Notes under the pieces: generated by a model | Seen by the model: the letters and a program-made list of their open reading frames with translations, nothing else | What the model was told of the DNA's origin: nothing | The model's database searches: none | Shown: positions 29,103-60,176 of the stretch, one piece after another | Layout of the letters: each line of letters begins with the position of its first letter | Position numbering within the stretch: position 1 is the stretch's first letter | DNA from: Xenopus tropicalis | Lineage: Eukaryota > Chordata > Amphibia > Anura > Pipidae | Assembly: GCF_000004195.4 (NCBI RefSeq) | Contig: NC_030683.2 | Location: 47,381,358-47,445,357 of the forward strand | Direction of reading: 5' to 3' | Length of the DNA: 64,000 bases | Made by a program: the position numbers and the translations under genes

Positions 29103-29255
29103 GTAAGTAATTTATTTTTGGATTTTCTTTTTATAAAGGGGGGGGGGGGGGTAATGGAATGTTTTTAAACATAAAATGCATTTCTGTGGATTTTTATTTC
29201 TGATGTGAAGACATTTACCATCCACCATTAATCAGACATATTTCTTCATCTACAG

Positions 29256-29289
29256 GATATGCTTCAGTCTGAGTCATTATAAATTTCCT
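29256..29289 (+). CDS. Candidate plus-strand exon (34 nt), joins 29000-29102 in phase
   Basis: The acceptor TTTCTTCATCTACAG is strong and the donor GTAAGA follows at 29290. Spliced to 29102 it continues open (WICFSLSHYKFP). It overlaps, on the other strand, the predicted final coding exon of the minus-strand gene. CCTGTAAG reads as a donor on plus and as an acceptor (CTTACAGG) on minus, so at most one of these is likely used. Confidence 0.3.
29277..29287 (-). CDS. Exon 10: possible terminal coding exon
   Basis: After the acceptor TTTGCTCTTACAG the frame gives Gly-Asn-Leu and a TAA at 29279-29277. An AATAAA on the minus strand (29116-29111) about 160 nt further could serve the 3' end. The tail is very short, and the site overlaps a plus-strand candidate donor, so another last exon is possible. 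Confidence 0.4.
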
Positions 29290-32200
29290 GTAAGAGCAAA
29301 CAACACGGGTATTTATATCTTTAATTCTAAGCAATGTTTAAGAGCTGTGAAATATATAGAGCTAAATCTAATTCTTTAATAATAAGGAAGTAACTTGCAC
29401 TTAAATAAGGATAAAAAAAATCCCATTGGTATTCTGTATTATAAAAATACCCATTATGTATTCCATATAATAGATTCCATACTTGTACAATATATTTATA
29501 TATTTGCAAACATATTTACCTTGTTCTGCCTGAGACAGTTGGTCCTTTTCTCTAGAATAACAAGAAAAAAAGGATATTAGTACCAAAGCAAGCTTCTCAA
29601 CAACAATAAATTAAGAAAATGCTTAAAATAATACCTGGTTAATTTCGAAAGGGACCTTGCCAGGTACAGCAATATGACAATCACCATTAAAAATCCACTT
29701 CCCAGGACTATACAAATGATGATCAGATTAATTTGATTATTGTTCTCCAAGTCTTTTATCATCATTAGGATTTTATCTGCATAGAAATAATATTATTAGG
29801 CAAATTTTTACTACAAAGCATTTGTACAGGTATGGGACCCGTTATCCAGAATGCTCGGGACCAGGGGTTTTCCGGATAAGGGGTCTTTCCATAATTCGGA
29901 TCTCCTACCGTAAGTCTACCAAGCAAATTATGTAAACAGTATTTAAACCCAATAGGACTGTTTTGGAAAAACAAGAAAAAGGAAAACATTTTTAAAAATG
30001 TGAATTATTTGATTAAAATGGAGTCTATGGGAGATGGTCTTTCCGTAATTTGGAACTTTCTGGATAATGGGTTTCTGGATAAGGGGTCCAATACCTGTAC
30101 AAGTTAATTCATGTCAATTTGAATATACTATATTTCCAAGTAAACAGATATAACGTAAATAATGTAATTAATAAATGATATTTATTTATCATCTCTCTAA
30201 TATATTAAGACACTATTGCATATCCTCTGTTTCTAGAATGTCTACAGTCTGTTCTCTATGGCACTTGTCACAAACACAGACAGACCCACACACACAGACA
30301 GACCCACACATTTATTTTTAGCGTAATCTGCGAAAAGTATGGTGAAAGCATGCTCAATGTACAAATGCATAGTTTATGTGTATGTTGAATTAAACAAGGT
30401 TTGGTTACCATTTGCTGATGGAGCTGCTGTTGTGGAGCTCATCTGGTTAGAGATTTCTGGTTTGAGAAAAGAAAAAAATATTTTGTTTCATTAAAAATAT
30501 TCCAGAGACACATGTAGAACTTATAAGAAACAAACATTTTAAATGTATTTATTCTGACGCCTAACAGGGTTAATAATTCCTGTGTTTTTTCTATTGCTCC
30601 ACTACAAGGACATTTACATATGGTGCTGATACAGGTTTTGGACATCTATGGATGTGAAAGCACAATTTATAGAGCTTCTACCTATTACATTATATTACAT
30701 TAACATTTATTTATAAAGCGCCAACATATTCCGCAGCGCTGTACAATATGTGGGTTACATACATTGGACATACAGAGTAACATATAAAGCAATCAGTAAC
30801 CGATACAAGAGGTGAAGAGGGCCCTGTACCTATGTTTGGAAACATTGTTCAACTACTTTAAGAAACTTTTGGGTACTGTATACTGCAACTCATCCAGTTG
30901 CTTGGTTTGGTGTTAATAGAAATTAACTCAAATAACTCAAAGCTAAATAAAGGATAGCTTACTAGTCAATTAAAATGGCAATGTGTATAAGAAAGTAGAA
31001 TGGCAAAACGCTTACGTCTCTCAACTCCATTTATAGTTTCTTCTACATCTTCCTCTTTTTCATCTGTTGATAAATTGGGAAGAAATAAAAGCACTATGTA
31101 ATTTAATTATATTTCAAGAGTCATTGTTTTTGGCCTTTGTTATTGGTCTTTGTTATGGTTCCCACATAGGAAAGAAATGCTGCACAGAGCAAAGGCATTA
31201 GGTTGACTCTGGTATACTTTCTCTTTAATAAGGATAAGCTGCTAACATCGAAGCTAGGAGCTAAAACAGGGAAGGACTATAGTACATGTTATATGCAGCA
31301 ACATGGTGCAAAGTCTATGCCCAGTAACCCATAGAAATGATCCAGCAGTCTGCTGGGCTAGTGGCATTACATTTAGGGATACAGTTATCTGGTTACTGTG
31401 GGCTGCTAAACCAAGGCAACATTTGACAATCTTACTACATTACTCCTTTCAAGTTGCTAAAAAAAATCCCTTCAAATTATTATTCTTACTTTGTTTATAT
31501 TCTCTTGCCTCAGTGCTGTCTTCCACTTCAGGAGCTTTAGTAGCATCTGAATGAAACAAATAAAAAATATGTAGTCATACCTTATATGTACGTAACTAAG
31601 CAGAAGTTATTATTATTATTATTACTACATTGTGAGAAGAGTCACTAAGTTTTATTTGATAAGGTATATTTGAGAATAAAACATTTTCATAAACTTTTAA
31701 GAGTATATTGTACTCTTAATATATTTGATATAAGTTTAATCCTATTGAGACTGAGTAATAGCACAGCCAATGGAAGGTTACCAGTTAAAATGAATCTTCA
31801 GGAAGGTTTCCAATAAAATTCAGTGCGGCCTGTTGAGCTGCAATTTCTGATTTTTTTACTTAAATTTTTTTAGCCTTAAGCCAATGTAATTTACATAAAT
31901 ATGAAGATTAAAAGCGTATGCATGAAAAAAATCATATAAATAGAAATCACTCTTAGGCTTCTTAGATAACAGTTTGCGCCACTGTAATAAACCACAGCAA
32001 CCAATGAGTGGGTTCCTTTAAGTCAACTGATATACTTAAGATCATGAAAATATAATCCTCCCGTTTATTGCTGTGGGCTAGGGATGTAGCGAACCTCACA
32101 AAAAAAGTTCGCGAACCCGTTTGCGAACTTCTGCCAAAAAGTGCGAACTTTTGCGAACTTTGCGAACCCCAGAGACTTCAATGAGAAGGCGAACTTTGAA

Positions 32201-35200
32201 ACCTAGAAAAGCCATTTACTTGTTGTAATCAGTAATCAGAAAATAAAAGCAGTCCTTACAAGGACTATTGGGTTACAGCAGATGAGATCAGCAGGACAGC
32301 TGCCCACAGCAGCTACATACAGAGCAGTAGAAAGTAGATTACTAGTCAGCAAAGCTACCTAAACTGTCCCTCAAACCCCTGCACAGCTCTCTCCCTATGC
32401 TAACTCTTCAAGCACACACAGGCAGAATGTAAAATGGCTGCTGGGCTTCGGTTTATTTATGGAAGGGAGTGGTCCGGGGGTGGTCCAGGAGGGAGAGCTG
32501 CCTGATTGGCTGCCATGTATCTGCTGGCTCTGGGGTGAGAGGTCAAAATTTGGCTCCAGCTAAGGCGAACCCAAAATTGCGAACTTGCGAACACCCGATT
32601 TTCTTGCGAATTAGTTCTCCGGCGAACAGTTCGCTACATCTCTAGTTACTAGGGCACGCTTTGCGCAGGTTACTACACAACCCTGATCATGTATTGTTAG
32701 GGCTGTGACACACGGGGAGATTCGTCGCACCGCAAATCTCCCTTGTCGCGGGCGACTAATATCCCCCAAATGTAATCCCACCGGCGACAATGTAAATTGC
32801 TGGTGGGATGGCATACGCGGCGTGGCAATTTGCTGAAGTCACCGAAGTTTCCTCTCAAGCCAACTTCAGCGACTCTGGCAAATCGTGCCACCACGTATGC
32901 CATTCCACCGGCTATTTACGTTTTGGCCGGTGGGATGGCATTTCAGGGAGATTAGTTGCCCGCGACAAGGTCACAGCCCTTAGGCGTAATGGTGGGTGTA
33001 ATGCTGAAAAAAATCTTATCCATTCAAATTAAAAAATAAACACATACCTTGAATCTTAGCTTCCTCAAGTATGCTTTTTTCAGTTTCATCATAATATTCA
33101 TTGCTGTCATCTTCTGTGTCTGAATTGAAAACAATAAAACTTTTTTTAACAATATGCAATATATATAGTGACATGGTACAAAGACGAAAAATTCACAAAA
33201 ACTCAGGTGATGTGCGTCTTTGATGATGTCATTACTATGTAGGAATATAGGGTAAATAGAGTACAACTGTTTTGACTGAGCTTAACTAAAATGCAGAAAA
33301 GCTAAATTGATTTGCAAACTACAATGGGAGCTATAGTATAGGTAAAGGATCTATAATCCGGAATGCTGCTTTGGACTTGGGGTTTTCCGGATAAGGGATC
33401 ATTCTGTAATTTGGTTCATTATAACTTATGTCAGCTTAAAAATAATTTAAACATTGAATTAACCCAACAGGATTGTTTTGCACTGTTATGAATTATTGCA
33501 GCTTAGTTATCAACTACAAGGTACTGCTTTATTATTATAAAGATATACATACATACACTACAGAGATATAGGAAATACGTTTTAAAAATCAAAATTATTT
33601 GTTTAAAATATTTATGCACTTACAATATATACATAGGGGTTAAACCAGCAATACTGATAATAATAATTGTGGGGCTAAAAGTAGGGGAAAAAAGCATTGA
33701 AAGCACATATTGTGTGCAGCAATGTGATACACAGTTTGCTCTGGTCCATTCAATAGCAGCCATGAAAGAAAGAATGTAATATTCTCTCCGGTTGCTCTTG
33801 GTTATTAGAAGGGAGGAATCTGCTCATATTATATCACCCCTTCATGTGTTGCTGGGTATGTTACTGATAAAATCTCCTCCAATCAAAAGTGAAAATATAA
33901 AACATCGCTTAAATCTTACTTTCAAAAGCTGTGGTTTTCCCAGCAACATTTTCAAACTCTTTCACATAATCCTTGGTTATACCTGATGTAAGAAATAAAA
34001 AATGTTACTCCTCAAGAATATCTGATGCGTGTTTGGTTACCTCCTATGCTGTAATTAGGGATGTAGCGAACATCGGCAAAAATGTTTGCAAACCCGTTCG
34101 CGGACTTTCGCCAAAACTCGCGAATATTCGCGAACTTTGCGAACTTCATAGACTTCAATGGGAAGGCGAACTTTAAAACCTAGAAAAGCCATTTCTGGCC
34201 AGAAAACTGATTTTAAAGTTGTTTAAAGGGTGCCACGACCTGGACAGTGGCATGCAGGAGGGGGATCAAGCAAAAATTTCTCTGAAAAATACTTTATAAA
34301 AAAACCGCAAAAAAAACGCAAAAAAAAAAACCGCAAAAAAAAATAACGCCAAAAAAAAAGCAAGCTATTCCTATGTATACGCAAAGGCGAAAAACCGAAG
34401 CGAAAAAACGCAGCGGAAAGAACCGAGGCGAAAAAACGCGGCACAAAAAAAAACACGGCAAACCCAAAATGGCGAACATCGCCAAAAGTTCGCGAATTTG
34501 CGGACTTGCGAACACCCGATGTTCGCGCGAATTAGTTCACCGGCGAACAGTTCGCTACATCTCTAGCTGTAAGGTTGTGGAAATGTTGCCCCAGCCCAGC
34601 CACAATTTTTATGTGATTTTAACTTGCTTGACAATGAATAGAAAAATGGGGATCGAAATTTTTCAGATTTTCACTGTGACTTAACGCAATTGTGATTAAC
34701 CCATTTGAGACCTTTGATAAAAAAGTACCTTTAAAATAATCAAATGCAAAATAACAGTGCTACAGTCTACTTTGAAAATTAAAAAAGGTATCCATATCTC
34801 CATATTTATCAAGCATTCTTAGGTACTGAACCTCAAGCTGTTATATGGTGTAAACAAGTACATTTGCCAATATAATTATTTTATAGATAAAATCACTGAT
34901 TGTGACAAATGGGCTTATATAAAGGTTAATTTTATTGACATTAAACAGGTTGTCTTTAATTTTTAGTATTGTATTGAGAATACTATTAGCTTTTTGTCCA
35001 GCATCTGTCCAGTTTTGAATTTCAGCAGCTAGGTGGTTAGGGTTAGGGTTTAATTTAAATAAAAGTAGCAATTATAATAACATTTTAGCCTAACAGAACT
35101 ATAGTTTTTTGGCTTAAGGGGTCAGTGACCCCCATTTGAAAGTTGGAATTAGAAGATGAAGGCAAATAATTAAACAAACTGTAAAAAAATTACGACCAAT

Positions 35201-36889
35201 TAACTTTGCTAAGAACAGGCCATTCTGTAACATACTAAGGGGCACATTTACTAATCCATGAATCCGAATCCCGAATGGGAAAAAATCGGATTGGAAACGA
35301 AAATTTTGCGACTTTTTCGTCGCCGTCGAGTTTTTTTCGTATTTTGCGTGATTTTTATCGTCGCCGCCACGACTTTATCGTATTTTGCGCGACTTTTTCG
35401 CCGCCATCGTGATTTTTTCATATTGAGCAATTGTAAACGGCGGAAAAACCAATCCGATTTGTTCGCGACGCCGACGAAAAAGTCACGACAATTTGCGAAA
35501 AAGTTGTGACGGCGATGAAAAAGTCACAACGGAAAAAGACGCAAAAATACCAATCATTACGGAAAAAACGCATTTGGACGCTTTTCGGACGTTCGTGGAT
35601 TAGTAAATGTGCCCCTAAAAGTTAAACTGAAGGTGAACCACCCCTTTATATATCCATGCACGCACAAGCACATAGAATATATATAAACATTGGTCTTGTT
35701 GTCCACAATCATTCACAAACAAAAAGCAGGACGCAAAGATCAAAAATGGTTACAGAATTTTTTTTTTTTTATAAAACTTACTCTCTGTGTCTGAGCTTGA
35801 TTCAGTGCTTGTTTGATTTGTAGCATCTTTATTTTCAGCTGCATTAAAAAATAAAAATCAATAAATGCCACATATATACCTTTGGGTGTTAGACTACAAG
35901 ATACAAATGAGTGATAACTCAACTAATGGGAAGTGTATATTAAAAAATATTCTTAATTTATGAGTCAGTTTTATGATTTATCAGATTTAGATTAACATAT
36001 CCCTTTAAAGGAGCTGCAAAATAAAGTAAAAATACAATTTTATTTTATATGGCAGCATAATAGGTATGGGATCCATTATCTGGAAACCTGTTATGCAGAA
36101 AGTTCCTGAGTTCTAAAAAAAAAAAACATACCAGCTACTCTACAAAGGTTAACTAACAAGATGAATAGTATACCATACCAAATGTTTCTATTTTCTGTTG
36201 CCATGTTAAAAAAAAACTACCGCTGAAGATTAACAGTTAAACCCACAAAAGGTTTTACTGTCTGTCTACATAAAATATATGGCAGCATAATGTGGGATCC
36301 ATTATCTGGAAACCTGTTATCTAGAAAGCTCTGAATTACAGGAAGGCCAACTAGCAAAGACTCTATTTTATTAAAATAATTTACATTTTTAATAACGATT
36401 TACTTTTTCTCGGTAATGAGTATTTTGTTCTTGATCTTAAATAAGCTATAACTAATCCTTAATGGAGGCAAACAATCATATTGGTTTTGATTAATGTTTA
36501 AATCATTTTTTATAAGTAAGGTATGTAGATCAAATTACAGAAAGATCTGGAAAATTCCAGGTCAAGAGCATTCTGGATAACAGGTCCCATACCTGTAGTA
36601 AAATTATACCTGTTTTTCTACAAAGGTTAGCCAAAAATGCAAAAAATGTATGTACAGTATATGAAATGTAATTATCCGAATACAAATGTAATAGAACTGA
36701 CACTATGAAATGTAATTTGCCAAAAAAAAACCTCACAACCTTTATAATAATACAGAGAAAATTCGACTAAACTAAATTATTTCTGGAATAAGATTAAAAA
36801 AAAAAAAACAACATACCTGATCCTCTACACAGGTGTATTAATAAGATGATTAATAGAAAATACCAAAAGGTTTTATTTCCTCTTGTCAT
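29277..36889 (-). CDS. Type I single-pass membrane protein, ten short exons, about 200 aa (spans introns)
   Basis: Ten minus-strand exons join without a frame break: 36889-36817, 35838-35782, 33982-33920, 33119-33048, 31546-31490, 31063-31016, 30456-30409, 29776-29635, 29551-29520 and 29287-29277. The sum is 603 nt (200 codons plus stop). Exons 1-7 are each bounded by AG and GT and end in phase 1. The protein has an N-terminal signal peptide (residues about 1-22, MTRGNKTFWYFLLIILL), an acidic Glu/Asp/Thr/Ser-rich ectodomain (about 23-150) with one NQT glycosylation sequon in exon 2, a hydrophobic helix (about 154-178) and a short charged tail. Cell-surface or acrosomal sorting is inference. 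Acidic stalk plus phase-1 mini-exons recalls CD99-type or equatorin-type proteins, but I see no similarity good enough to name it. The last exon is the weakest part. MITEs fill the introns. Confidence 0.75.
29520..29551 (-). CDS. Exon 9: cytoplasmic tail (32 nt)
   Basis: Acceptor GTTATTCTAG, donor GTAAAT. It takes the frame from phase 2 to phase 1 and encodes EKDQLSQAEQ. Confidence 0.6.
29635..29776 (-). CDS. Exon 8: transmembrane helix (142 nt)
   Basis: Acceptor TATTTCTATGCAG, donor GTATTA. Enters in phase 1 and leaves in phase 2. After KILMMIKDLENNNQ comes a helix of about 24 hydrophobic residues starting INLIIICIVLGSG, then a basic stop-transfer region (ARSLSKLTR), as expected for an N-out single-pass protein. 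Confidence 0.8.
29827..30097. mobile_element. 'ACAGGTATGGGA' MITE in intron 7, TA target
   Basis: CAGGTATGGGACCCGTTATCC and GGATAAGGGGTCCAATACCTG are inverted ends, each with TA outside. The inside has TTTAAACCCAATAGGA and AATTATTTGATTAAAATGG as in the other copies. Confidence 0.85.
30409..30456 (-). CDS. Exon 7 of the membrane-protein gene (48 nt)
   Basis: Acceptor CTTTTCTCAAACCAG, donor GTAACC. Phase 1 on both sides. Encodes a Ser/Thr/Ala/Pro stalk (ISNQMSSTTAAPSAN) just before the membrane exon. Confidence 0.72.
30694..30830. mobile_element. Frog interspersed repeat 'GCGCCAACATATTCCGCAGC'
   Basis: TTATTTATAAAGCGCCAAC, ATTCCGCAGCGCTGTACAAT and GGTTACATACATTGGACATAC occur in the order I know from a very common Xenopus interspersed repeat, probably retroelement-derived. 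It lies in intron 6. Confidence 0.6.
31016..31063 (-). CDS. Exon 6 of the membrane-protein gene (48 nt)
   Basis: Acceptor TTTATCAACAG, donor GTAAGC. Phase 1 on both sides. Encodes an acidic block (EKEEDVEETINGVER). Confidence 0.72.
31490..31546 (-). CDS. Exon 5 of the membrane-protein gene (57 nt)
   Basis: Acceptor TTTCATTCAG, donor GTAAGA. Phase 1 on both sides. Encodes ATKAPEVEDSTEAREYKQ after the split codon. Confidence 0.72.
32081..32642. mobile_element. 'GGGATGTAGCGAAC' MITE, 562 bp, TA target
   Basis: Ends GGGATGTAGCGAAC and GTTCGCTACATCTC are inverted, with TA on each side. Subterminal words GTTCGCGAACCCGTTTGCG are typical. The same family is at 34058. It lies in intron 4. Confidence 0.85.
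32700..32979. mobile_element. 'GGGCTGTGACACACGGGGAG' MITE, 280 bp, TTA target
   Basis: Ends GGGCTGTGACAC and GTCACAGCCC with TTA on both sides (32697-32699, 32980-32982), as in PIF/Harbinger. The inside is an inverted set of GATTAGTCGCCCGCGACAAG-like words around a centre near 32845. It lies in intron 4, 70 bp from exon 4. Confidence 0.85.
33048..33119 (-). CDS. Exon 4 of the membrane-protein gene (72 nt)
   Basis: Acceptor TTTTCAATTCAG, donor GTATGT. Phase 1 on both sides. Strongly acidic (TEDDSNEYYDETEKSILEE). Confidence 0.75.
33338..33610. mobile_element. 'ACAGGTATGGGA' MITE, worn, in intron 3
   Basis: GGAATGCTGCTTTGGACTTGGGG, TTTTCCGGATAAGGGATC and AACCCAACAGGATTG follow the family order. 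The ends are eroded. Confidence 0.65.
33920..33982 (-). CDS. Exon 3 of the membrane-protein gene (63 nt)
   Basis: Acceptor CTTACATCAG, donor GTAAGA. Phase 1 on both sides. Encodes ITKDYVKEFENVAGKTTAFE after the split codon. Confidence 0.72.
34058..34563. mobile_element. 'GGGATGTAGCGAAC' MITE, 506 bp, TA target
   Basis: Same ends as the element at 32081, again with TA outside each end. The middle has a long A-rich run with CGCAAAAAAAA and CGCCAAAAAAA words (34300-34460), which accounts for the mirror frames seen on both strands. It lies in intron 2. Confidence 0.85.
35100..35650 (-). mobile_element. T2-type MITE interrupted by a Harbinger-like MITE
   Basis: GGTGAACCACCCCTTTA at the right is the inverted form of the end at 23655, and GGGTCAGTGACCCCCATTTG at the left matches its middle. 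The continuous sequence is split by the palindromic MITE at 35239-35615 with its TAA duplication. Confidence 0.8.
35239..35615. mobile_element. Palindromic Harbinger-like MITE, 377 bp, TAA target
   Basis: Ends GGGGCACATTTACTAATCC and GGATTAGTAAATGTGCCCC, TAA on both sides. It carries CGACTTTTTCGTCGCCG words inside. It lies inside a T2 copy in intron 2. Confidence 0.9.
35782..35838 (-). CDS. Exon 2 of the membrane-protein gene (57 nt)
   Basis: Acceptor AATGCAG, donor GTAAGT. Phase 1 on both sides. Encodes AENKDATNQTSTESSSDTE, with the only N-glycosylation sequon (NQT) seen in the protein and many Ser/Thr, suited to O-glycosylation. Confidence 0.75.
36132..36204 (-). CDS. Exon 1b: duplicated alternative signal-peptide exon
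   Basis: The same length as exon 1a (73 nt), with ATG at 36204-36202, 24 open codons, a hydrophobic core (MATENRNIWYGILFILL) and the same GTATGT donor (36131-36126) in the same phase. The flanks are also duplicated: AAAACTACCGCTG, AACCCACAAAAGGTTTTACTGTCTGTCT upstream of both, and TATATGGCAGCATAAT with MITE pieces on the other side. It could splice to exon 2 and give a different signal peptide. The two peptides differ at many positions but stay open. Confidence 0.65.
36290..36598. mobile_element. 'ACAGGTATGGGA' MITE between exons 1b and 1a
   Basis: TGGGATCCATTATCTGGAAACC at the left and GGATAACAGGTCCCATACCTGTA at the right. A second partial left end of the same kind lies at 36060-36110, on the other side of exon 1b, in line with a tandem duplication that included the MITE end. 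Confidence 0.75.
36600..36640 (-). other. Possible third exon-1 remnant
   Basis: The words TATACCTG, TCTACAAAGGTTAGCC parallel the donor side of exon 1b (CATACCAGCTACTCTACAAAGGTTAAC). The remainder of the exon is not recognisable. It fits a repeated duplication of the first-exon region. Confidence 0.35.
36817..36889 (-). CDS. Exon 1a: start codon and signal peptide
   Basis: ATG at 36889-36887, 24 codons plus one base, then the donor GTATGT (36816-36811). It encodes a basic start (MTRGNK), a hydrophobic core and a CRGS-type cleavage region, a standard secretory signal. The upstream sequence (36890-36970) is shared with exon 1b. Confidence 0.75.
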
Positions 36890-37081
36890 TTTGAATAAAA
36901 AAAATGAATTCCAAAAAAAACTACCGCTGGAGATAAACAGTAAAACCCACAAAAGGTTTTACTGTCTGTCTTGAACGGAAGTCAGAATGCAATTGAGGTA
37001 AAGTCTGGATGGCCTTCTGACTGAACCAAACATAATTGTGATGTCACACCTACCATCCATTGTGACACTGTGATCTCTCAG

Positions 37082-50416: not shown

Positions 50417-51898
50417 ATGTCTACTCCAGAGGAGGAGCTTTTTTCACTAATTGAGGCGATTGATCTCCCTGACAAACCTTGCAAATTAAAAGCTAAATAA
50501 AAAAGGCAGGTTAAAACTTCTGCTAAATCCAAGGATCGCTCCCCCTCTCCTCTCAAAGAGAGCATACCCGATCCTGCTAAAATGACCACTACGGCTATGG
50601 TGCATGCCAGTCAGGACTCCCAGTCACAGGCACTTAATACACCTCCAGAGGTTCTTGACACAACAGCACCATTAACAGCACAGATTCCACCTTCTGACAT
50701 TTCCCAGTTTATGTCATGGATCCAATCCGCAGTACAATCCTCTGTACAGCAGACACTATCATCCCATCCACCGGAGACCAGTGCTAAGAAACGCAAACGG
50801 TCAACCTCACCGGTACCTAAGCGTAGACCCGCTACCTCTCCCACACATTCACAAGATTCTAGTTCAATGTCAGGCCACTCCTTAGTAGAGTTAAGCGACA
50901 TAGACTCAGATGAAGAATTTTCATCTGAATATCAATCTAGTGAATCAGATGTCACATCCAAACAACCTGAGGAAATTAAAAATATCCTTTAAGATATCTT
51001 TGCCACATTAGAGATCAAGGAGGAGCAAACAGCTCTTTCAAAAGCAAACAGAGTCTTGGGCAATACTTCTAGAAAAGCCAGAGCCTTTCCAGTGTGTAAG
51101 TCTGTTATAAAATGCGTAGAGTCAGAGTGGCAACAGCCCGATAAAAAGACTAATATCCCAAACAAGTTTTTCGCAACGTATCCTATCCCGGATGATTACA
51201 AACATTGGGACAAAATCCCAAAAGTGGATCCACCCATTGTTAGGTTGGCACGCAGTACTATCTTACCAGCAGAGGACGCAGGTTATCTAAAAGACCCAAT
51301 GGATAAAAAAATAGACTCTGCACTAAAGAAAGAATTCCAGAACACAGCGGCTATTTTAAGACCAGCGGCAGCTGCCGCCACAGTAGCCAGAATGGCAAGA
51401 TACTGGTGTCAGGAACTACAGAGACACCCACCCACCGATCCTAATGAATTTACTACTGAGCTAGAAAAAATCAAATCTGCCCTAGCTTTTCTAGGTGAGG
51501 CAGCCACGGAGACAGCTAAACTGTCAGCCAGAGCCTCAGCAGCATCGGTCACGGCTCGCAGGGCCCTGTGGTTGCGCCAATGGTCAGGCGACACAGCCTC
51601 AAAACACAAGCTCACATCACTAAAATTTACCGGGTCACAGTTATTTGGCCCAGAATTAAAACAAATTATATCAGAAGTCACCGGTGGCAAGGGTGCCTTC
51701 TTACCACATGGGAAACGGCCTAGAAGGGAGTCACATAGAAGAAATTATCATCACCGCTCATGGCCTTCTACCAACAGGCAACAGCGAAACTCTAGAACTC
51801 AAATACAATCACAACCGAACAGAAGGTTCAAGCCCAACTGGCAAAGCCAACCCAAGTCCTCCCGTAAGCCTACCCCAATCAAGGGACAGGATTCCTGA
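50417..51898 (+). pseudogene. DIRS ORF1 (gag-like), two in-frame stops
   Basis: ATG at 50417 opens MSTPEEELFSLIEAIDLPDK. The same frame runs to TGA at 51896-51898 (493 codons), broken by TAA at 50498-50500 and TAA at 50990-50992. The first third is Ser/Thr/Pro-rich and acidic. The middle (about 51056-51660) is helical and Ala-rich, as in putative capsid proteins. The end is basic with many Arg, Gln and Asn, which could bind nucleic acid. There is no zinc knuckle. The frame overlaps the next ORF (from about 51684) in the +1 frame. Confidence 0.8.
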
Positions 51899-52325
51899 CC
51901 CTCCCAACCACAGTATCGTTCAAACGCCAGTAGGAGGAAGATTAAGCAGCTTTGTACAAACCTGGAAAAATTCAATCACAGACACCTGGGTACTAAACAT
52001 TCTAGAACATGGCTACAGCATTCCATTTGCAAAAAAGCCTCCGGAACACAGATTTGTCCCATCCTCCATTCCAACCGACCCAACCAAACAAAAAGCATTG
52101 CTCACCATAATACAGGATTTGCAAAACAACAACGTAATATCCCCGGTACCGCAGGAATATAGTTTCCACGGATTTTACTCCAATATTTTCCTAGTGTCAA
52201 AGAAAGACGGCGGATTTCGCCCAGTTCTCAACTTACACCCACTCAACAAATTCGTATGATACGAACGCTTCAAGATGGAGTCACTTCCCTCAATCATAAG
52301 AGGCTTAACACCAAGCGTCTTTATG
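51684..52325 (+). pseudogene. DIRS RT ORF, N-terminal part, stop at 52257
   Basis: This frame lies +1 relative to ORF1 and overlaps its end. It carries the RT beginning: KALLTIIQDLQNNNVISPV, NIFLVSKKDGGFRPVLNLH. A TGA at 52257-52259 follows a CpG-compatible position. After it the frame continues open to the insertion point at 52325, where the gypsy element begins. The same frame resumes at 57679. Confidence 0.82.
52321..52325 (+). repeat. Target duplication TTATG, left copy
   Basis: TTATG directly before TGTCAGG of the gypsy LTR. The second copy is at 57677-57681. A 5-bp duplication is normal for Ty3/gypsy integrases. Confidence 0.95.
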
Positions 52326-52881
52326 TGTCAGGACAAGCCGGGCGCGTCACTGGAAGAACTCGTAGAGGAAGGACCTCTCCTACACCTCCCACTAAGGATC
52401 ACAGCCACTGAGGATGGAACAGGACTTGAACCAAGTGGAGGAGTGGCAGGAGTGCCGAACCGGAACGTCAGAGCAAAATCGGCAGGCAAAAGCGAGGTCG
52501 GACAGGCGGGAAGTCGGTACAGGCAGCAAGTATTCAAGATCGAGAGTCAGGCCGGGTCAGAGAATCAATAGGCAATCACAGGAAACAAGCTTGGCGTCTT
52601 TCACAAGGAAACGTTCACTTCGCAATGCTGGTAGGCCTTTGGCGTCCTTTTGAGCGCAATGCGCCTGCGCCGGCGTCAAGACGCATGCCAGCGTCATGAC
52701 ACGCGCCGGCGTCATGACGCGCGCCGGCGTCAAGACGCGCACTTGCGTTAATGCGCGCGCGGGCGTCACGACGCACGCCGGCGTCAATATGTGCGCGAGC
52801 GACGGAGCGCGCGCGGCCGTCAGAACGTGCGCTGGCGATCGGGCGCGCGCCTACCTTAGGCGAACGACCAGGTACCTGACA
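52326..52881 (-). repeat. Gypsy 3' LTR (556 bp, seven 18-bp units)
   Basis: The same sequence as the 5' LTR apart from three extra 18-bp units (54 bp) and a handful of changes, most in the units. The gag-pol frame runs into this LTR and ends at 52615, so the last ~90 residues are encoded by the U3 repeats. Confidence 0.93.
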
Positions 52882-53850
52882 TTGCCCCCTCCCAAGGCGC
52901 GGCCTCCGGATGCGCCCAGACGCAGGTTTCCCTGGAAATTTCTTATGGAAGGCCCGAATCAGTTGAGGAGCATGAACATTGGTTGAAGATTCCCAGGAAT
53001 TGTCCTCAGGCGTATAGCCCTTCCACTGGACCAAATACTGCAAGCGACCTCTTCGATACCTGGAATCGAGAATAGCTTGGACTTCGAATTCTTCAACACC
53101 CTGTACTGTCACTGGCTCTGGAGGTGCCCCAATACGACCCGGAAACGGATTCTCCACCACTTTCTTTAGAAGAGAGACGTGGAACACAGGATGGATTTGA
53201 AGGTTAGCAGGCAGCTTCAATTTAAAGGTAACAGAGTTAATTTGCTCCAAGATTGGGAAGGGACCCATAAACCTTTGGCCCAACTTCTTGGAGGGACACG
53301 ATAACCTGAGGTTGCGAGTGGATAACCAAACGAGATCCCCCAGCTTGAATTCAGGACTCTTTCTCCGTCTCTTATCGGCATATCCTTTGTAATTCCTTTG
53401 AGCCTCCCGTAAAGTCTGCTGGAGCAACTCGAAATTATGCCTTAAGAACGAAAGTCTATCCTGAGCTGCAGGAACCGTAACCTCTGTTAGGCCTGGCAGA
53501 GTGGTAATATGGAATCCATAGTTAGAGAAAAAAGGAGTCTGTTTGGAGGAGCTATGTACCGCATTATTGTAAGATAAGGGTAAGAGCGCCGACCAATCTT
53601 CCTGAGAATAAGAGGAAAAACATCTAATATATTGCTCCAACGTCTGATTAGTACGTTCTGTTTGCCCATTCGTCTGAGGATGAAAAGCAGAGGACAGGGC
53701 GAGCTCAATATGGAGTCCCTGGCATAACGCCCTCCAGAAGCGAGACGTAAACTGCGACCCTCGATCAGACACTATCTCCCTGGGTAAGCCGTGAAGCCGA
53801 AAGACCTCTTTAATAAATACTTCTGCCGTTGTGCTGCAGATGGTAACCCC
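52615..53850 (-). pseudogene. Gypsy gag-pol, part 4: integrase core and chromodomain
   Basis: After the frameshift the frame carries the second catalytic Asp (SDRGSQFTSRFW) and the Glu (HPQTNGQTERTNQ), a GPFPILEQINSVTFKL-type integrase C-terminus and a chromodomain (EVQAILDSRYRRGRLQYLVQ, WKGYTPEDNSWE). Chromodomains of this kind bind modified histone tails and steer insertion. The tail (from about 52880) is translated LTR repeat (ARSDGRARSVARAH) and of no clear function. Confidence 0.9.
52882..52893 (-). promoter_or_regulatory. Polypurine tract of the gypsy element
   Basis: On minus GGGAGGGGGCAA stands directly before TGTCAGG of the 3' LTR, the expected place and composition for plus-strand DNA priming. 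Confidence 0.85.
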
Positions 53851-54560
53851 ACCAAGGGTATAAAGTGAGCCATCTTGGTAAACCCGTCAACCACTACCAT
53901 GATTGTGTTAAAACCCCCCGACTTGGGCAGATCCACAATAAAGTCCATGGAAATTCTCTCCCAGGGTTTCTCAGGAACCGGGAGAGGTTGAAGTAACCCC
54001 ATTGGTCGGGAGTGTGTATCCTTGAATCTGGCACATGTTTGACAGGAAGTAACATATTTCATGCAATCCCTTGACATGCTGGGCCAAAAAAAATTCCTAT
54101 TAGCAAGTTCTAGTGTCTTGCGAACCCCCAGGTGGCCGGAAACAGGATGATCATGGACAAATCTGAGTACCTCGAGGCGCAGGTCTTCAGGGACAAAAAT
54201 GTTATTATTAGACATGAGGTAATTACCACGATGATCCATATGTGTAGGTAAATTGTCCACAGACTTGGAGGCGTTCTGGATCTTGTCAAGCAGATCGGCT
54301 TGGAGAAGGAGAAAATTGGAGGCATGAAGGACAGTGCTGGCGGCAGAATCATTCTCGGGTGCAGAAAACAGACGGGACAACGCATCCGCTTTGCCATTCT
54401 TGGAACCCGGTCTAAAAGTAACGTGGAAGTTGAATCTGGAAAAGAAGAGTGCCCATCTGGCCTGACGAGGTCGGAGTCTTTTTGCTGAGCGTAAATATTC
54501 CAAGTTCTTGTGATCAGAAAAAACTAAAATAGGGTGAGACGCCCCCTCCAACAGGTATCG
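53772..54560 (-). pseudogene. Gypsy gag-pol, part 3: RNase H end and integrase N-terminus; frameshift near 53840
   Basis: Same frame. RNase H end (FSDHKNLEYL, GSKNGKADALSR), integrase zinc-binding HHCC (HPVSGHLGVRKTLE, CQTCARF) and the first catalytic Asp (ISMDFIVDLP). Near 53830-53850 the reading frame shifts by one, and the old frame then ends at TAG 53774-53772. Codons from there to the stop are out of frame. Confidence 0.88.
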
Positions 54561-55286
54561 CTATTCTTGGAATGCAGATTTAATCGCAAGTAGCTCTCTG
54601 TCTCCCACATCGTAATTTTGCTCAGAGGAAGATAACTTTTTAGAGAAAAATGCGATAGGATGAAGTAGGCTCTGTACATCATTTCTTTGCGATAGCACAG
54701 CTCCGATGGCATACTCTGAGGCATCCACCTCTAGAACAAACGGCCGTGTAGGATCTGGATGTTTTAGAATGGGAGCGGAGGTAAAACGATTCTTGAGATC
54801 CAAAAAAGCCCGCTGAGCCGCAGAAGTCCAGCAGAATCTTTTTACCGAGCTGGTAAGAGCAGTGATAGGGGCGATTATCTTAGAGAAATTCTTGATGAAC
54901 TTTCGGTAAAAGTTGGCGAAGCCCACAAATCTTTGTACAGCCTTACGACTGTTGGGAACGGGCCAGTCTAATACCGCAGAGACCTTGCGAGAGTCCATAG
55001 ATATTCCGTCTGAAGAAATGATAAAACCTAGGAACTCTATAGAAGACTTTTCGAACTCACACTTCTCCAGTTTGGCGAAAAGTTTATATGCTCGTAACCG
55101 AGAGAAGACTTGCCTGACGTGGTGTCGGTGTTCCTCCAAGGAAGATGAAAATATTAAGATATCATCGAGATAAATAATAACGAAAAGATCCAAAAAGTCT
55201 CTGAAAATATCATTTGCAAAGTGTTGAAACGTCGCTGGGGCGTTGCATAGCCCGAAAGGCATCACTAGGTATTCATAGTGCCCATA
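54561..55286 (-). pseudogene. Gypsy gag-pol, part 2: RT catalytic core and RNase H start; ends at a premature TAG
   Basis: Same frame as part 1. It holds [14 protein letters not shown], the catalytic YLDD ([11 protein letters not shown]), the RT thumb ([16 protein letters not shown]) and the RNase H beginning ([29 protein letters not shown]). The TAG at 54563-54561 cuts inside RNase H, again without a frame change. Confidence 0.9.
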
Positions 55287-57158
55287 TCAGGTGCGAAAGG
55301 CTGTTTTCCACTCATCTCCTTGTCGAATGCGGACCAAATTGTATGCCCCCCGAAGATCTAGTTTTGTGAATACATGTGCTGAACGTAATCTTATAAACAG
55401 TTCCGAGATAAGGGGTAGCGGATATCGGTTCTTAATGGTTACCTTGTTCAAATCTCGGTAGTCTATGCAGGGGCGTAAGGAATGGTCTTTTTTCTCAACG
55501 AAGAAAATACCTGCCCCAGCAGGAGAGGTAGACGGACGGATAAATCCTTTCCTAAGGTTTTCCTCAATGTAGGTCTTGAGAACTTTAAGTTCAGGTTCAG
55601 ATAGAGGGTAGATCCGTCCGAATGGGATCGCTGCTCCGGGAAGAAGATCCACCGGGCAATCATAAATCCGATGTGGAGGAAGTACATCCGCTCCTTTCTC
55701 ATCAAAGACATCTAAGAATTCGTGGTAAGGTTCTGGAACCAGTTTGAGTCGAGGATCAGGGGTCACAACCAGCAATCTCCCAGGAGCCAACTCAGAACAA
55801 GGACAATGCTCAGAGGGAAATGTTATTTGATTCGAGTCCCAATTGATGAGAGGGTTATGAGTTTTTAACCATGGAAACCCCAAAATGATAGGATACAGAG
55901 GGGAAGAAACCACGTTAAATGATAGGGTTTCGGTATGCTGTTGAATTTTTATTAACAAAGGAATAGTCTCAAACAGGACTGGACCAGAAGAAATATTAGA
56001 TCCGTCAGCCAACTTCACCGTCAGTGGGCAGGATCTGGGTCTTAAAGGAATGTCATGAAAACGGGCGAAGTCTCGATCGATAAAGCAACCGCACGCCCCG
56101 GAGTCAATCAACGCAGGGGTCTGGAGCGTCTTTCTTGACCACTGCAAAATAGTAATAACTGACATAAGAGACAGTCCATCAACAGCTTCCGCACTAAGAA
56201 GACCCGGTATAGATCTCTTACTTGTAGGTCGCACCGGGCATGTGCGGAGCAGATGACCAGAGGCACCACAGTAAAGGCACAAGTTCAGGCGACGTCTGCG
56301 TAGCCTCTCTTCGGGAGTCAGAGGGGAACGGATGAGCCCGATTTGCATGGGTTCAGCAGCCCCAGCCGATGACGAGGCCGTGGTGGACGGAGCCAAAATG
56401 GGTTTAGGGAATAGAGGAGCTTTAGGGAGCAGCCAACTGGGTTGAAATGTCCCGGACTTTTCTAGTCTCCTCTCCCTCAAACGTCGGTCTAACTGGACGA
56501 CGACATCGATGAGAGAATCGAAGTCTTCGGGAATCCCCACTCGGGCTAGCTCGTCCTTTAGACCTTCAGACAACCCTATTCTGAATTGATGCTTCAGTGC
56601 AGCTTGATTCCATCGGGTATCTGCAGCGTGGCTACGGAAGTCAGTAACATATTCCTCAACTGGCCGTTTACCCTGGGACAAAGATCTGAGTGCGGCTTCA
56701 GCTGAGGCTTCTCTTTGGGGGTCATCGTATAATACCGCCATCGCCTGGAAAAAAGCAGCAGAGTCACTAAACAACGGACTTTGTTGTTCCAAAAGACGAT
56801 GAGCCCAAGTCTGTGGCTCCCCGGACAGGAGTGAGATAGCGAACCCCACCTTGGACTGCTCAGTCGTATAAACTTGGGGGTTAAGTGTGAATTCCAGCTT
56901 GCAGCTATTCATAAAAGCCCGGAACTTTTTGCGATCCCCCAGAAAACGCTCCGGCAGAGAGAGCTTAAGCTTGGCAATTGGCGGCTGGGCCGCAACAGGT
57001 GGGGGTGCAATAGGAGCATCAGTAGGATCCCTGGGCAGGGGTTGTAGCTGGGCTTGAACTTCTTGGAAACCTGCCTGTAGTTCTTGCACCGCTCGAGTGA
57101 GGGTCGCCATCTGCTGGGTAAGGAGCTGCATAGCAGAAATTTCCTCAGATTCTTCCAT
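55287..57158 (-). pseudogene. Gypsy gag-pol, part 1: gag, protease, start of RT; ends at a premature TGA
   Basis: ATG at 57158 lies 17 nt after the 5' LTR. A coiled-coil-like start (residues 7-38), a capsid region (about 60-230), one CCHC zinc knuckle ([14 protein letters not shown], about 294-307), a protease with IDSGA (about 351-355) and the first RT blocks ([28 protein letters not shown]). The frame stops at TGA 55289-55287 within the RT. The next codons continue in the same frame, so this is one base change in a CpG context. Confidence 0.9.
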
Positions 57159-57162
57159 ACTG

Positions 57163-57174
57163 GCGAAGTGATAC
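57163..57174 (-). promoter_or_regulatory. Putative self-priming primer-binding site
   Basis: On minus, directly after the LTR, the sequence reads GTATCACTTCGC. The nine bases TCACTTCGC are the exact complement of GCGAAGTGA inside the LTR (57472-57464). No TGG-started tRNA complement follows the LTR. Tf1 and sushi elements prime from the folded 5' end of their own RNA, and this arrangement fits that. Confidence 0.6.
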
Positions 57175-57676
57175 TGTCAGGACAAGCCGGGCGCGTCACT
57201 GGAAGAACTCGTAGAGGAAGGACCTCTCCTACACCTCCCACTAAGGATCACAGCCACTGAGGATGGAACAGGACTTGAACCAAGTGGAGGAGTGGCAGGA
57301 GTGCCGAACCGGAACGTCAGAGCAAAATCGGCAGGCAAAAGCGAGGTCGGACAGGCGGGAAGTCGGTACAGGCAGCAAGTATTCAAGATCGAGAGTCAGG
57401 CCGGGTCAGAGAATCAATAGGCAATCACAGGAAACAAGCTTGGCGTCTTTCACAAGGAAACGTTCACTTCGCAATGGTGGTAGGCCTTTGGTGTCCTTTT
57501 GAGCGCAATGCGCCTGCGCCGGCGTCAAGACGCGCGCCGGCGTCATGACGCGCGCCGGCGTCATGACGCGCGCCGGCGTCAATACGTGCGCGAGCGACGG
57601 AGCGCGCGCGGCCGTCAGAACGTGCGCTGGCGATCGGGCGCGCGCCTACCTTAGGCGAACGACTAGGTACCTGACA
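57175..57676 (-). repeat. Gypsy 5' LTR (502 bp, four 18-bp units)
   Basis: On minus it begins TGTCAGGTACC and ends TTGTCCTGACA. The U3 part (57676 to about 57475) is CpG-rich with four 18-bp units of the form CGCCGGCGTCATGACGCG (about 57525-57597). The GCGAAGTGA word at 57472-57464 is a candidate transcript start because it pairs with the site next to the LTR. Confidence 0.93.
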
Positions 57677-57681
57677 TTATG
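57677..57681 (+). repeat. Target duplication TTATG, right copy
   Basis: TTATG directly after CCTGACA of the gypsy LTR, identical to 52321-52325. Confidence 0.95.
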
Positions 57682-59187
57682 TCAAAAATCGACATCAAAG
57701 ACGCATACCTACACATGCCCATCAATCCATTTCACCAGAGATTTCTTCGGTTCGCCCTAGGGCAATCGCACTACCAATTCCAAGCCCTGCCTTTCGGACT
57801 GACGTCCGCCCCAAGGGTGTTTACCAAAGTTCTAGGAGCCCTGCTGGCAGTTCTCAGACTGCAAGGCATTCACGTGACGGCCTATCTCGACGATCTGATA
57901 CTCACGGCACAGTCGGAGGAGGAAGCCAACTCCCACACACAAAAATGCCTTCACCAGCTGCAGCAGCATGGTTGGCTAATCAATTACAAAAAAAGCCTCA
58001 TCAGCCCGACGCAAGAGCTAGAGTTCCTAGGTATGCAAATCAGCACAATAGTCAAGAAGGTGTTCCTTCCACGACACAAAGCTCTCATACTACAGCAGGC
58101 AGCAAAAGATCTACGATTACAATCTCAAACATCAGCTCACGACATCCTCAGATTACTGGGCCTAATGGCGGCCGGCATAGAGGCGATACCATTCGCAAAA
58201 TTTCATCTGCGACCACTCCAGTGGGAGTTCCTAAGGCGATGGAACAAGAATCACCAAGACCTCTCACAAAAGATAGAGCTATCCATCAAAGTGAAGCAAA
58301 GCCTGAATTGGTGGACGCACCTTCCCAACCTCACACAGGGCAGAAACTGGGACTGCCCAGTTCAAGAGGTGGTCACTACGGACGCCAGTCGGATGGGATG
58401 GGGAGCCACCTGGCCACCAAAGGTTTGTCAAGGCACTTGGACACAACAAGAACTCAAACTTCACATAAACGCATTAGAGATAAAGGCAGTATTCTACGCC
58501 TTAAGCCATTGGCAGGCGGCCATGAGAGGAAAACATGTACGAATACAGTTGGACAACAGCACCACGGTGGCTTACTTAAACCGGCAAGGAGGCACGAAGA
58601 GTGCATCCGTGCTCCGAGAAGTATCCCGGATCATGGCATGGGCGGAAACACACCAAGTACTTCTATCGGCAATATTCATTCCGGGCATCCAGAACTGGGA
58701 AGCAGATTACTTAAGTCGCACCACGTTGGACCCAGGGGAATGGAAACTCAAAACGGAGATCTTCCAACAGATAGTGGTCAAATGGGGCCAGCCATGCATA
58801 TATGTCATGGCATCCAGATTCAACTCACAGACCCCAAGGTTCCTGTCAAAGGTCCACGACCCGATGGCGGAGGGAGTAGACGCACTCACCAGCCCATGGC
58901 ACTGCCAACTAGCTTATGCGTTCCCTCCCATACCACTCATACCTCGACTTTTACACAAGATCAGGAGAGAAAGAGTTCCCACCATCCTCATGGCCCCATG
59001 GTGGCCACGCAGAGCTTGGTTTGCGGAACTGATTCAGATGTCAGAAGAACAAACATGGACCCTTCCCTTATCTCCCGATCTTCTGTCGCAAGGCCCGGCA
59101 ACAGCAGAGAATCTACACAAGCTCAATTTAACGGCTTGGATGTTGAAGCCAGAATATGGCATCAAGAAGGATTCTCAAAACAAGTAA
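57679..59187 (+). pseudogene. DIRS RT/RNase H/methylase-like ORF, C-terminal part (502 codons)
   Basis: It continues the RT frame of 51684-52325 after the gypsy insert (the inserted length keeps the frames in register once one TTATG copy is discounted). Motifs: SKIDIKDAYLHMP (RT domain A), FGLTSAPRVFTK, catalytic YLDD at residues 69-72, then RNase H with TTDASRMGWG (about 233), an LDNSTT box (about 290) and a DYLSR end. Beyond lies an AFPPIPLIPR / APWWPRRAWF region resembling the degenerate DAM-methylase-like domain described in DIRS. It is open throughout, but cut from its N-terminus. Confidence 0.88.
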
Positions 59188-60176
59188 TTCAGACTTTGCT
59201 AACGGCAAGAAAGCAATCCACTTACGCAGTATATCACAAAGTATGGAAGCGATTTCTCAATTGGAGCCAAGCCCGCAATATAAGTTGGCAATCATGCAGA
59301 TCCACCCACATTTTAGACTTCCTACAAGGTGTGGACAAAAGAGTAAGAACTTCAGCACTCAAGATGCAGACTTCTGCACTTTCAGCTCTATTGCACAAAC
59401 AGTGGGCCAGTCTTCCAGAGGTTAAATTATTCTTCCAGGCACTTCAAAAGATCCGTCCCCCAGTGAGAGATCCAATCCCTCCATGGGACCTCAATTTAGT
59501 ACTTCGAGCTCTTCAGAGACCTCCCTTTGAACCCTTGGGTTCTGTGGATCTAAAATTCCTGACATGGAAAGTAACCTTCCTCCTCGCAATATGTTCAGCT
59601 AGGAGAGTTTCAGATTTGGCAGCCCTGTCACATTTAAAACCTTGGACTATATTTCATCAGGATAAGGTGGTACGCCGCACTATGCCATCTCACCTTCCTA
59701 AGGTTATATCAAAGTTCCATATCAATGAAGAAATTATTTTACCGTCATTCTGCCCTAACCCGAGCAATGATCGAGAGAAACAATTGCATACACTGGACAC
59801 TGTAAGAGCACTAAAGTTTTATTTACACAGAACAACTGACCTCAGACATTCAGATGCACTTTTTGTTCTGTTCGGAAACAATAAAAGAAGTCAGCAGGCC
59901 TCAAAACGATCCATAGCACGTTGGATAGTTCAAACCATACTTGAAGCCTATAAGGTCATGGAAAGAGAAGCTCCATTTACAGTTAAAGCACATTCCACTA
60001 GAAAAGTTAGTGCTTCATGGGCGCTCCACAATTTTGCTTCAGCTGAAGCCATATGCAAGGCAGCTACTTGGAGCTCCTTACACACTTTTTCAAAATTCTA
60101 TAGGCTAGATGTCATTGCCTCCTCAGAGGCGGCCTTTGGCAGGAAGGTGCTACAAGCAGCGGTAGCACATAGCTAG
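57945..60176 (+). CDS. DIRS tyrosine recombinase, overlapping the RT/RNase H frame
   Basis: A 743-codon open frame. The recombinase proper is the last 330 codons or so (from about 59150). It has a core-binding region (KQSTYAVYHKVWKRFLNWS), an Arg box (CSARRVSDLAAL, near 59595), a HSTRKVSASW box (His-x-x-Arg, near 59990) and a later FSKFYRLDV with the likely nucleophile Tyr (near 60100). The first ~410 codons run antiphase over RT/RNase H and are low-complexity, rich in Arg, His, Thr and Gln. Where translation starts is unknown. This is the only undamaged coding region of the element. Confidence 0.88.
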   Translation: MPSPAAAAWLANQLQKKPHQPDARARVPRYANQHNSQEGVPSTTQSSHTTAGSKRSTITISNISSRHPQITGPNGGRHRGDTIRKISSATTPVGVPKAMEQESPRPLTKDRAIHQSEAKPELVDAPSQPHTGQKLGLPSSRGGHYGRQSDGMGSHLATKGLSRHLDTTRTQTSHKRIRDKGSILRLKPLAGGHERKTCTNTVGQQHHGGLLKPARRHEECIRAPRSIPDHGMGGNTPSTSIGNIHSGHPELGSRLLKSHHVGPRGMETQNGDLPTDSGQMGPAMHICHGIQIQLTDPKVPVKGPRPDGGGSRRTHQPMALPTSLCVPSHTTHTSTFTQDQERKSSHHPHGPMVATQSLVCGTDSDVRRTNMDPSLISRSSVARPGNSRESTQAQFNGLDVEARIWHQEGFSKQVIQTLLTARKQSTYAVYHKVWKRFLNWSQARNISWQSCRSTHILDFLQGVDKRVRTSALKMQTSALSALLHKQWASLPEVKLFFQALQKIRPPVRDPIPPWDLNLVLRALQRPPFEPLGSVDLKFLTWKVTFLLAICSARRVSDLAALSHLKPWTIFHQDKVVRRTMPSHLPKVISKFHINEEIILPSFCPNPSNDREKQLHTLDTVRALKFYLHRTTDLRHSDALFVLFGNNKRSQQASKRSIARWIVQTILEAYKVMEREAPFTVKAHSTRKVSASWALHNFASAEAICKAATWSSLHTFSKFYRLDVIASSEAAFGRKVLQAAVAHS

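Follow-up and report, generated by a model that had tools for sequence, protein, structure and literature searches.

The question raised by this locus is whether a string of very short open segments, each next to splice-like signals, constitutes a gene. The segments lie on the minus strand of a 64,000-nucleotide (nt) stretch of Xenopus tropicalis DNA, here called the window (assembly GCF_000004195.4, contig NC_030683.2; the comparisons below treat X. tropicalis as a separate species). An earlier analysis confined to the letters of the DNA (the sequence-only reading) had assigned them to a real host gene of phase-1 mini-exons, and this assignment is backed by the anatomy of the exons, by a test against chance and by homologous proteins. 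The locus is very probably an intact gene of the LOC108648126 group, encoding a type I single-pass surface glycoprotein; this degree of confidence covers both the gene and the topology of its product.

Exon anatomy and chance expectation

The gene has ten exons running from 36889 to 29277 (Table 1) and a spliced product of 200 amino acids (aa). At its core are six internal mini-exons of 57, 63, 72, 57, 48 and 48 nt, all divisible by three, free of stops, in phase 1 on both sides and bounded by CAG acceptors and GTA donors. The sequence-only reading had described seven stop-free phase-1 segments of 48-73 nt, each with AG and GT borders. Coordinates, phase and frames were confirmed for all of them; what did not hold is the AG border of the first, exon 1, which opens at an ATG and has a GT border only. 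The exon with a membrane helix that was said to follow the mini-exons was found at 29776-29635, with one helix.

A run of six internal phase-1 mini-exons far exceeds chance. Open phase-1 segments of 45-75 nt were counted in the 7.8-kilobase (kb) stretch between 29.2 and 37.0 kb, using assumed splice-site weights and taking as cut-offs the weakest acceptor and donor scores among the six mini-exons (a post hoc choice that favours the claim). The stretch yielded exactly six candidates, all of them mini-exons of the sequence-only reading, and its opposite strand yielded none. Two hundred first-order Markov resamples gave a mean of 0.105 candidates, a maximum of 3 and a longest chain of 1, bearing out the earlier contention that such a chain is very unlikely to arise by accident. 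Thirty half-overlapping 7.8-kb stretches from both strands were also scored, covering each strand except for the final 1.6 kb at one end. The three minus-strand stretches holding this gene's mini-exons gave 6, 4 and 3 candidates and the other 27 of the 30 no more than one each.

The opposing view, in which there is no gene and open stretches merely happened to fall between splice-like sites, has little to draw on except AT-rich sequence with many pyrimidine tracts and a codon-usage scan (with an assumed usage table) whose 15 segments include none of this gene's exons. Apart from the Markov resamples, it has to contend with full-length homologs, taken as another species', whose exons are recovered in order (see below). 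The probability left to this view is vanishingly small.

Relatives and condition of the gene

The spliced product was compared with 5.8 billion proteins by means of exact shared 5-residue words, with targets of 0.55-1.75 times the query length and expectation values (E) up to 10. Three matches were obtained, all from X. tropicalis and each on a contig of 133.6 megabases. They are "protein CASP-like isoform X2" (P0001, 333 aa; E 1.8e-72 over 87% of the query) and the two isoforms of uncharacterized LOC108648126, X1 (P0002, 272 aa; E 3.4e-72) and X2 (P0003, 254 aa; E 1.2e-62), both covering 100% of the query. A profile search, in which the 7995 candidates with most words in common were scored, added another X. 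tropicalis protein (P0004, E 4.7e-3), and a search of the same protein set restricted to helix and tail gave no further relatives. No relative outside X. tropicalis was found in the three protein searches, limited as they were by common words and length; the family is apparently restricted to Xenopus.

Alignment of P0001-P0003 to the window by tblastn recovered the separate exons in order. Over residues 1-200 of the window protein, identity to isoform X1 (P0002) is 61.6%. By part, the signal exon stands at 71%, the stalk exons at 50-71%, the membrane exon at 75% (36/48) and the tail at 93%, the stalk figure taking module 3b of P0002 as the counterpart of exon 3 (with module 3a, exon 3 is at 48%). 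Exon 3 shares 15 of its 21 residues with module 3b and 10 with module 3a. Exon 1a is identical to P0001 at 21 of 24 residues (87.5%, E 8e-9 by tblastn) and to P0002 at 17, whereas 13 of the 14 residues of exons 9-10 equal those of P0002, with the same last residue. The likeness to the LOC108648126 and CASP-like proteins extends along the whole length, from signal peptide through stalk modules, helix and tail to the C-terminus. Besides exon 1b, discussed below, tblastn detected no significant further copies of this gene's exons in the window.

P0004 aligns collinearly with the leader, exon 1a and the start of intron 1 (37033-36635, 48% identity, E 4e-25), which indicates that even non-coding sequence is common to the two. 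Judged from this alignment, the window gene may be orthologous to the X. tropicalis gene, and the collinearity supports that view. X. tropicalis has two related proteins; their best alignment shows 62.5% identity, so they probably come from two genes. The gene group is real and already predicted in X. tropicalis, where it is uncharacterised and unnamed or misnamed; a literature search found no mention of LOC108648126 or XENTR_v10018174. The sequence-only reading had thought the gene might be unannotated or lineage-specific. The former does not hold for the family as a whole in view of the predicted proteins (LOC108648126 X1/X2 and CASP-like), and the latter agrees with the lack of any relative outside X. 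tropicalis. Conservation of the segments in a second Xenopus species, on which that reading had staked its case, was counted as found by way of the X. tropicalis homologs.

The window might instead hold a recently dead or silent copy, its frame kept by chance, with the working genes elsewhere. No protein assigned to the window's own species appeared in the three protein searches, at least two genes seem to be present in X. tropicalis (the two proteins just compared), and the donors of exons 6, 7 and 8 are weak. However, all ten exons are open, GT and AG are present at each splice site, start and stop are intact and a candidate polyadenylation signal is in place. Moreover, the near-identity of the tail, set against the 50-71% of the stalk, points to purifying selection, and the missing same-species protein counts for little because the set searched may omit the window genome's own records. 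We consider a silent copy improbable, and an intact gene the better reading.

No credible Pfam family was found in the full lists, to E 10, for two forms of the window protein, P0002 and P0003. For P0001 the best 25 of 47 matches were available, reaching E 0.095 (HMMER filters drop most matches above about 0.1). A type I restriction enzyme domain, the best match to the window protein, was discarded (E 0.0022; 18.9 bits, below the cut-off of 27). Two matches of P0001, DEX1 beta-sandwich (27.6 against 27) and ALS_ss_C (26.4 against 23.2), fall on its 37-aa repeats, are unlisted for P0002, P0003 and the window protein, and were taken as spurious. CASP itself is a Golgi protein with a CASP Pfam domain and a long cytoplasmic coiled coil. 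That domain is absent from the best 25 of the 47 matches of P0001 and from the four full lists, and the name "protein CASP-like" seems to be an automatic label, unsupported by the Pfam matches listed.

Equatorin (EQTN, Pfam Afaf) and the CD99/CD99L2/XG proteins are built on an acidic single-pass type I plan, and CD99-type genes, too, have many small exons. With its signal peptide, acidic stalk and single helix, the window protein follows the same plan and might be an extremely diverged member of either group. Yet the equatorin model is absent from the four full Pfam lists and from the best 25 of 47 for P0001, as are the CD99/CD99L2/XG models, in a library that presumably contains both (PF15339 for equatorin). 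The profile search, with its 7995 scored candidates, gave X. tropicalis only, and a sequence search of the PDB with the window protein returned 0 matches to E 10. Membership in these families is highly improbable. The earlier statement that the product belongs to no nameable family stands, the hidden Markov model search against equatorin and CD99-like families that it proposed having given no match in the Pfam lists.

Table 1. Features of the minus-strand gene, with the evidence for each
Feature	Position	Strand	Evidence
5' leader	36890..37033	-	Shared with X. tropicalis: tblastn of P0002 and P0004, one collinear P0004 match (37033-36635)
Exon 1a: start ATG and signal peptide, donor gtatgt	36817..36889	-	73 nt
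Duplicated 5' leader of exon 1b	36205..36267	-	59 nt (36209-36267) at 95% to 36913-36971
Exon 1b: own ATG, hydrophobic signal, phase-1 donor, inside intron 1; candidate alternative first exon	36132..36204	-	Duplicate of exon 1a
Exon 2, 57 nt, phase 1-1, N-glycosylation sequon NQT	35782..35838	-	Weak alone against P0002 (E 1.6, tblastn)
Exon 3, 63 nt, phase 1-1; module repeated in X. tropicalis proteins	33920..33982	-	P0002 E 4e-4 (tblastn)
Exon 4, 72 nt, phase 1-1	33048..33119	-	P0002 E 2e-6 (tblastn)
Exon 5, 57 nt, phase 1-1	31490..31546	-	P0002 E 0.078; P0003 E 0.013, match extending into intron
Exon 6, 48 nt, phase 1-1; counterpart absent from X. tropicalis isoform X2	31016..31063	-	P0002 E 0.045; 18-aa gap in P0003 here
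Exon 7, 48 nt, phase 1-1	30409..30456	-	Weak alone (best E 0.54); in register in full alignment
Exon 8, 142 nt: juxtamembrane stretch, transmembrane helix, stop-transfer	29635..29776	-	P0001 E 5e-18; hydropathy peak 3.18
Exon 9, 32 nt: cytoplasmic tail, TAG acceptor	29520..29551	-	P0002 E 5e-4, match starting inside intron
Exon 10, coding part: last residues and stop TAA	29277..29287	-	C-terminus GNL common to P0001-P0003; too short to match alone
AATAAA, candidate polyadenylation signal	29193..29198	-	Pattern match only

Protein plan, stalk modules and possible role

The protein begins with a hydrophobic stretch, continues with a stalk of about 130 aa bearing a single sequon (NQT), and ends with one helix (hydropathy to 3.18) and a short cytoplasmic tail of net charge +0.8. 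The stalk has an isoelectric point of 4.12 and a net charge of -21.1. Computed charge, hydropathy and the 200-aa product fit the type I protein of about 200 aa, with signal peptide, acidic stalk, one helix and small tail, that had been read from the DNA, and a type I topology is plausible. AlphaFold2 modelling of P0002, together with P0001 and P0003, gave a mean predicted local distance difference test score (pLDDT) of 39.9, with no residue at 70 or above. Such low values are compatible with a disordered stalk and do not prove it.

Several points weigh against the reading of the locus as an intact gene for a surface glycoprotein. The weak donors of exons 6, 7 and 8 score 1.5, 1.0 and 0.8. Taken alone, exons 2 and 7 are not significant and exons 5 and 6 match only at E 0.01-0.08. 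The X. tropicalis proteins are predictions, and their exon borders were inferred from protein rather than from DNA; isoform models of this type usually rest on reads. A mean pLDDT obtained from three sequences is a poor test of disorder. Finally, surface location, glycosylation and a role of the tail are deductions, and the stalk offers one sequon only.

The window gene differs from its relatives in the make-up of the stalk. It has one exon-3-type module; LOC108648126 apparently has two (the count in P0002 follows our own partition of the protein) and the CASP-like protein five, and the latter lacks exon 5 in the full alignment. Four of the P0001 repeats are full 37-aa units identical to one another at 34-37 of 37 positions; the fifth matches at 25-27. 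The two LOC108648126 isoforms bear on how such differences may arise. P0003 differs from P0002 in lacking 18 residues where exon 6 lies (an exon that encodes 16 residues in the window) and in having K rather than Q at the join. The last base of exon 5 in the window is "a" and the first two of exon 7 are "aa", so that skipping of exon 6 would give AAA, a lysine codon. The match between this predicted lysine and the P0003 join allows the mini-exons to be read as skippable phase-1 cassettes. The detail is independent of overall similarity and, as sequence evidence goes, supports the cassette reading. With all stalk exons in phase 1-1, skipping, duplication or loss would occur without frameshift. 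Splicing would then change the length of the stalk inside one species, and exon duplication would make it differ among genes and among species, whereas the helix and tail would stay fixed, presumably doing constant work such as sorting or binding an internal partner.

A comparable arrangement is found in the micro-exon genes (MEGs) of schistosomes. One account describes short symmetric exons removable without breaking the frame and, in one MEG, duplication of an exon directly after the signal peptide exon (PMC8293314). MEG exons are given there as mainly up to 36 bp and, in a second account, as 3-81 bp (PMC10526429). The likeness lies in the small frame-neutral exons and in exon duplication, and no relation is claimed; no homology to MEGs was seen in the general protein searches, the only ones made. 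Unlike MEGs, whose products are described as secreted, the window gene has exons of 48-72 nt, a membrane anchor and a conserved tail.

We picture a protein whose signal peptide is cleaved off, leaving an acidic stalk (about 130 aa, probably unfolded), a single helix and a tail, some 20 aa long, that hardly varies. It may act as a negatively charged, glycosylated spacer at the cell surface, keeping cells or ligands apart or presenting sugars. This is the likeliest role that we can propose, and it is put forward tentatively. More doubtful is the wider idea of a Xenopus-only surface family in which the genome would tune the length of the charged stalk through phase-1 mini-exons and pick between two signal-peptide exons, helix and tail being fixed. 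On that view, such rapid turnover would speak for work at a conflict interface, for instance on gametes, skin or immune cells. Whatever the role, the group provides a clear vertebrate case of a stalk made from interchangeable phase-1 mini-exons, the number of modules differing between two proteins of one frog and a relative. The nearly frozen tail marks the site at which to seek a partner. In addition, predicted proteins with uninformative or misleading names (CASP-like) fall into one small membrane protein family, seen so far only in Xenopus.

Second first exon, translation start and surrounding sequence

Exon 1b and its duplicated leader, which the sequence-only reading did not mention, are new here. 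The copy of leader plus signal exon (36267-36115) is identical to the exon 1a copy at 128 of 172 positions. Between exons 1a and 1b the NG86 nonsynonymous (dN) and synonymous (dS) distances are 0.30 and 0.43, from 24 codons, too few for a claim of selection. The two leader copies, at 95%, are much closer to each other than are the coding exons after them. The likeness of the leaders may point to conservation of a leader or promoter element, and exon 1b could provide an alternative promoter and first exon. A signal-peptide-like stretch at about 36640-36600, considered as a third copy of exon 1, was rejected; it lies within or at the edge of the intron 1 sequence aligned with P0004.

The leader of exon 1a holds an upstream open reading frame of 24 codons, closed by a stop in the window; in the X. 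tropicalis X1/X2 models the same frame continues into the main reading frame. These models start 42 codons upstream, in what is leader in the window, where the window frame has its stop. P0001, on the other hand, has as its first residue the conserved methionine that precedes the signal peptide. Together, the window stop and the start of P0001 make this methionine the better start, and by this comparison the X1/X2 models probably begin too far upstream.

The rest of the window was surveyed more briefly. Rfam at gathering thresholds gave 0 matches in the window and a tRNA scan 0. Eight open frames from outside the gene were scanned against Pfam; neighbouring genes may have escaped the codon-usage scan, which cannot exclude them. 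Viral contigs, considered as a source of stray frog DNA, were dismissed (374 pattern matches, no relative by tblastn). A tandem array at 489-1139, with a 37-bp unit in 17.8 copies, is open over long distances in each of the three forward frames and probably does not represent a gene. On the plus strand, 50501-52259 and 57667-60176 belong to a retroelement, which we take to be DIRS-like, with a LAP2alpha-like open reading frame (E 3.3e-21) and a reverse transcriptase (E 2.1e-19); its long frame 57675-60176 has no Pfam match. This retroelement seems to be split in the reverse transcriptase region by another element. Nested in it, on the minus strand at 52326-57678, is a Gypsy-type long terminal repeat element with gag, protease, reverse transcriptase, RNase H and chromodomain (integrase core below cut-off). 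Its frames are broken by in-frame stops, and its direct terminal repeats are 96% identical over 443 nt.

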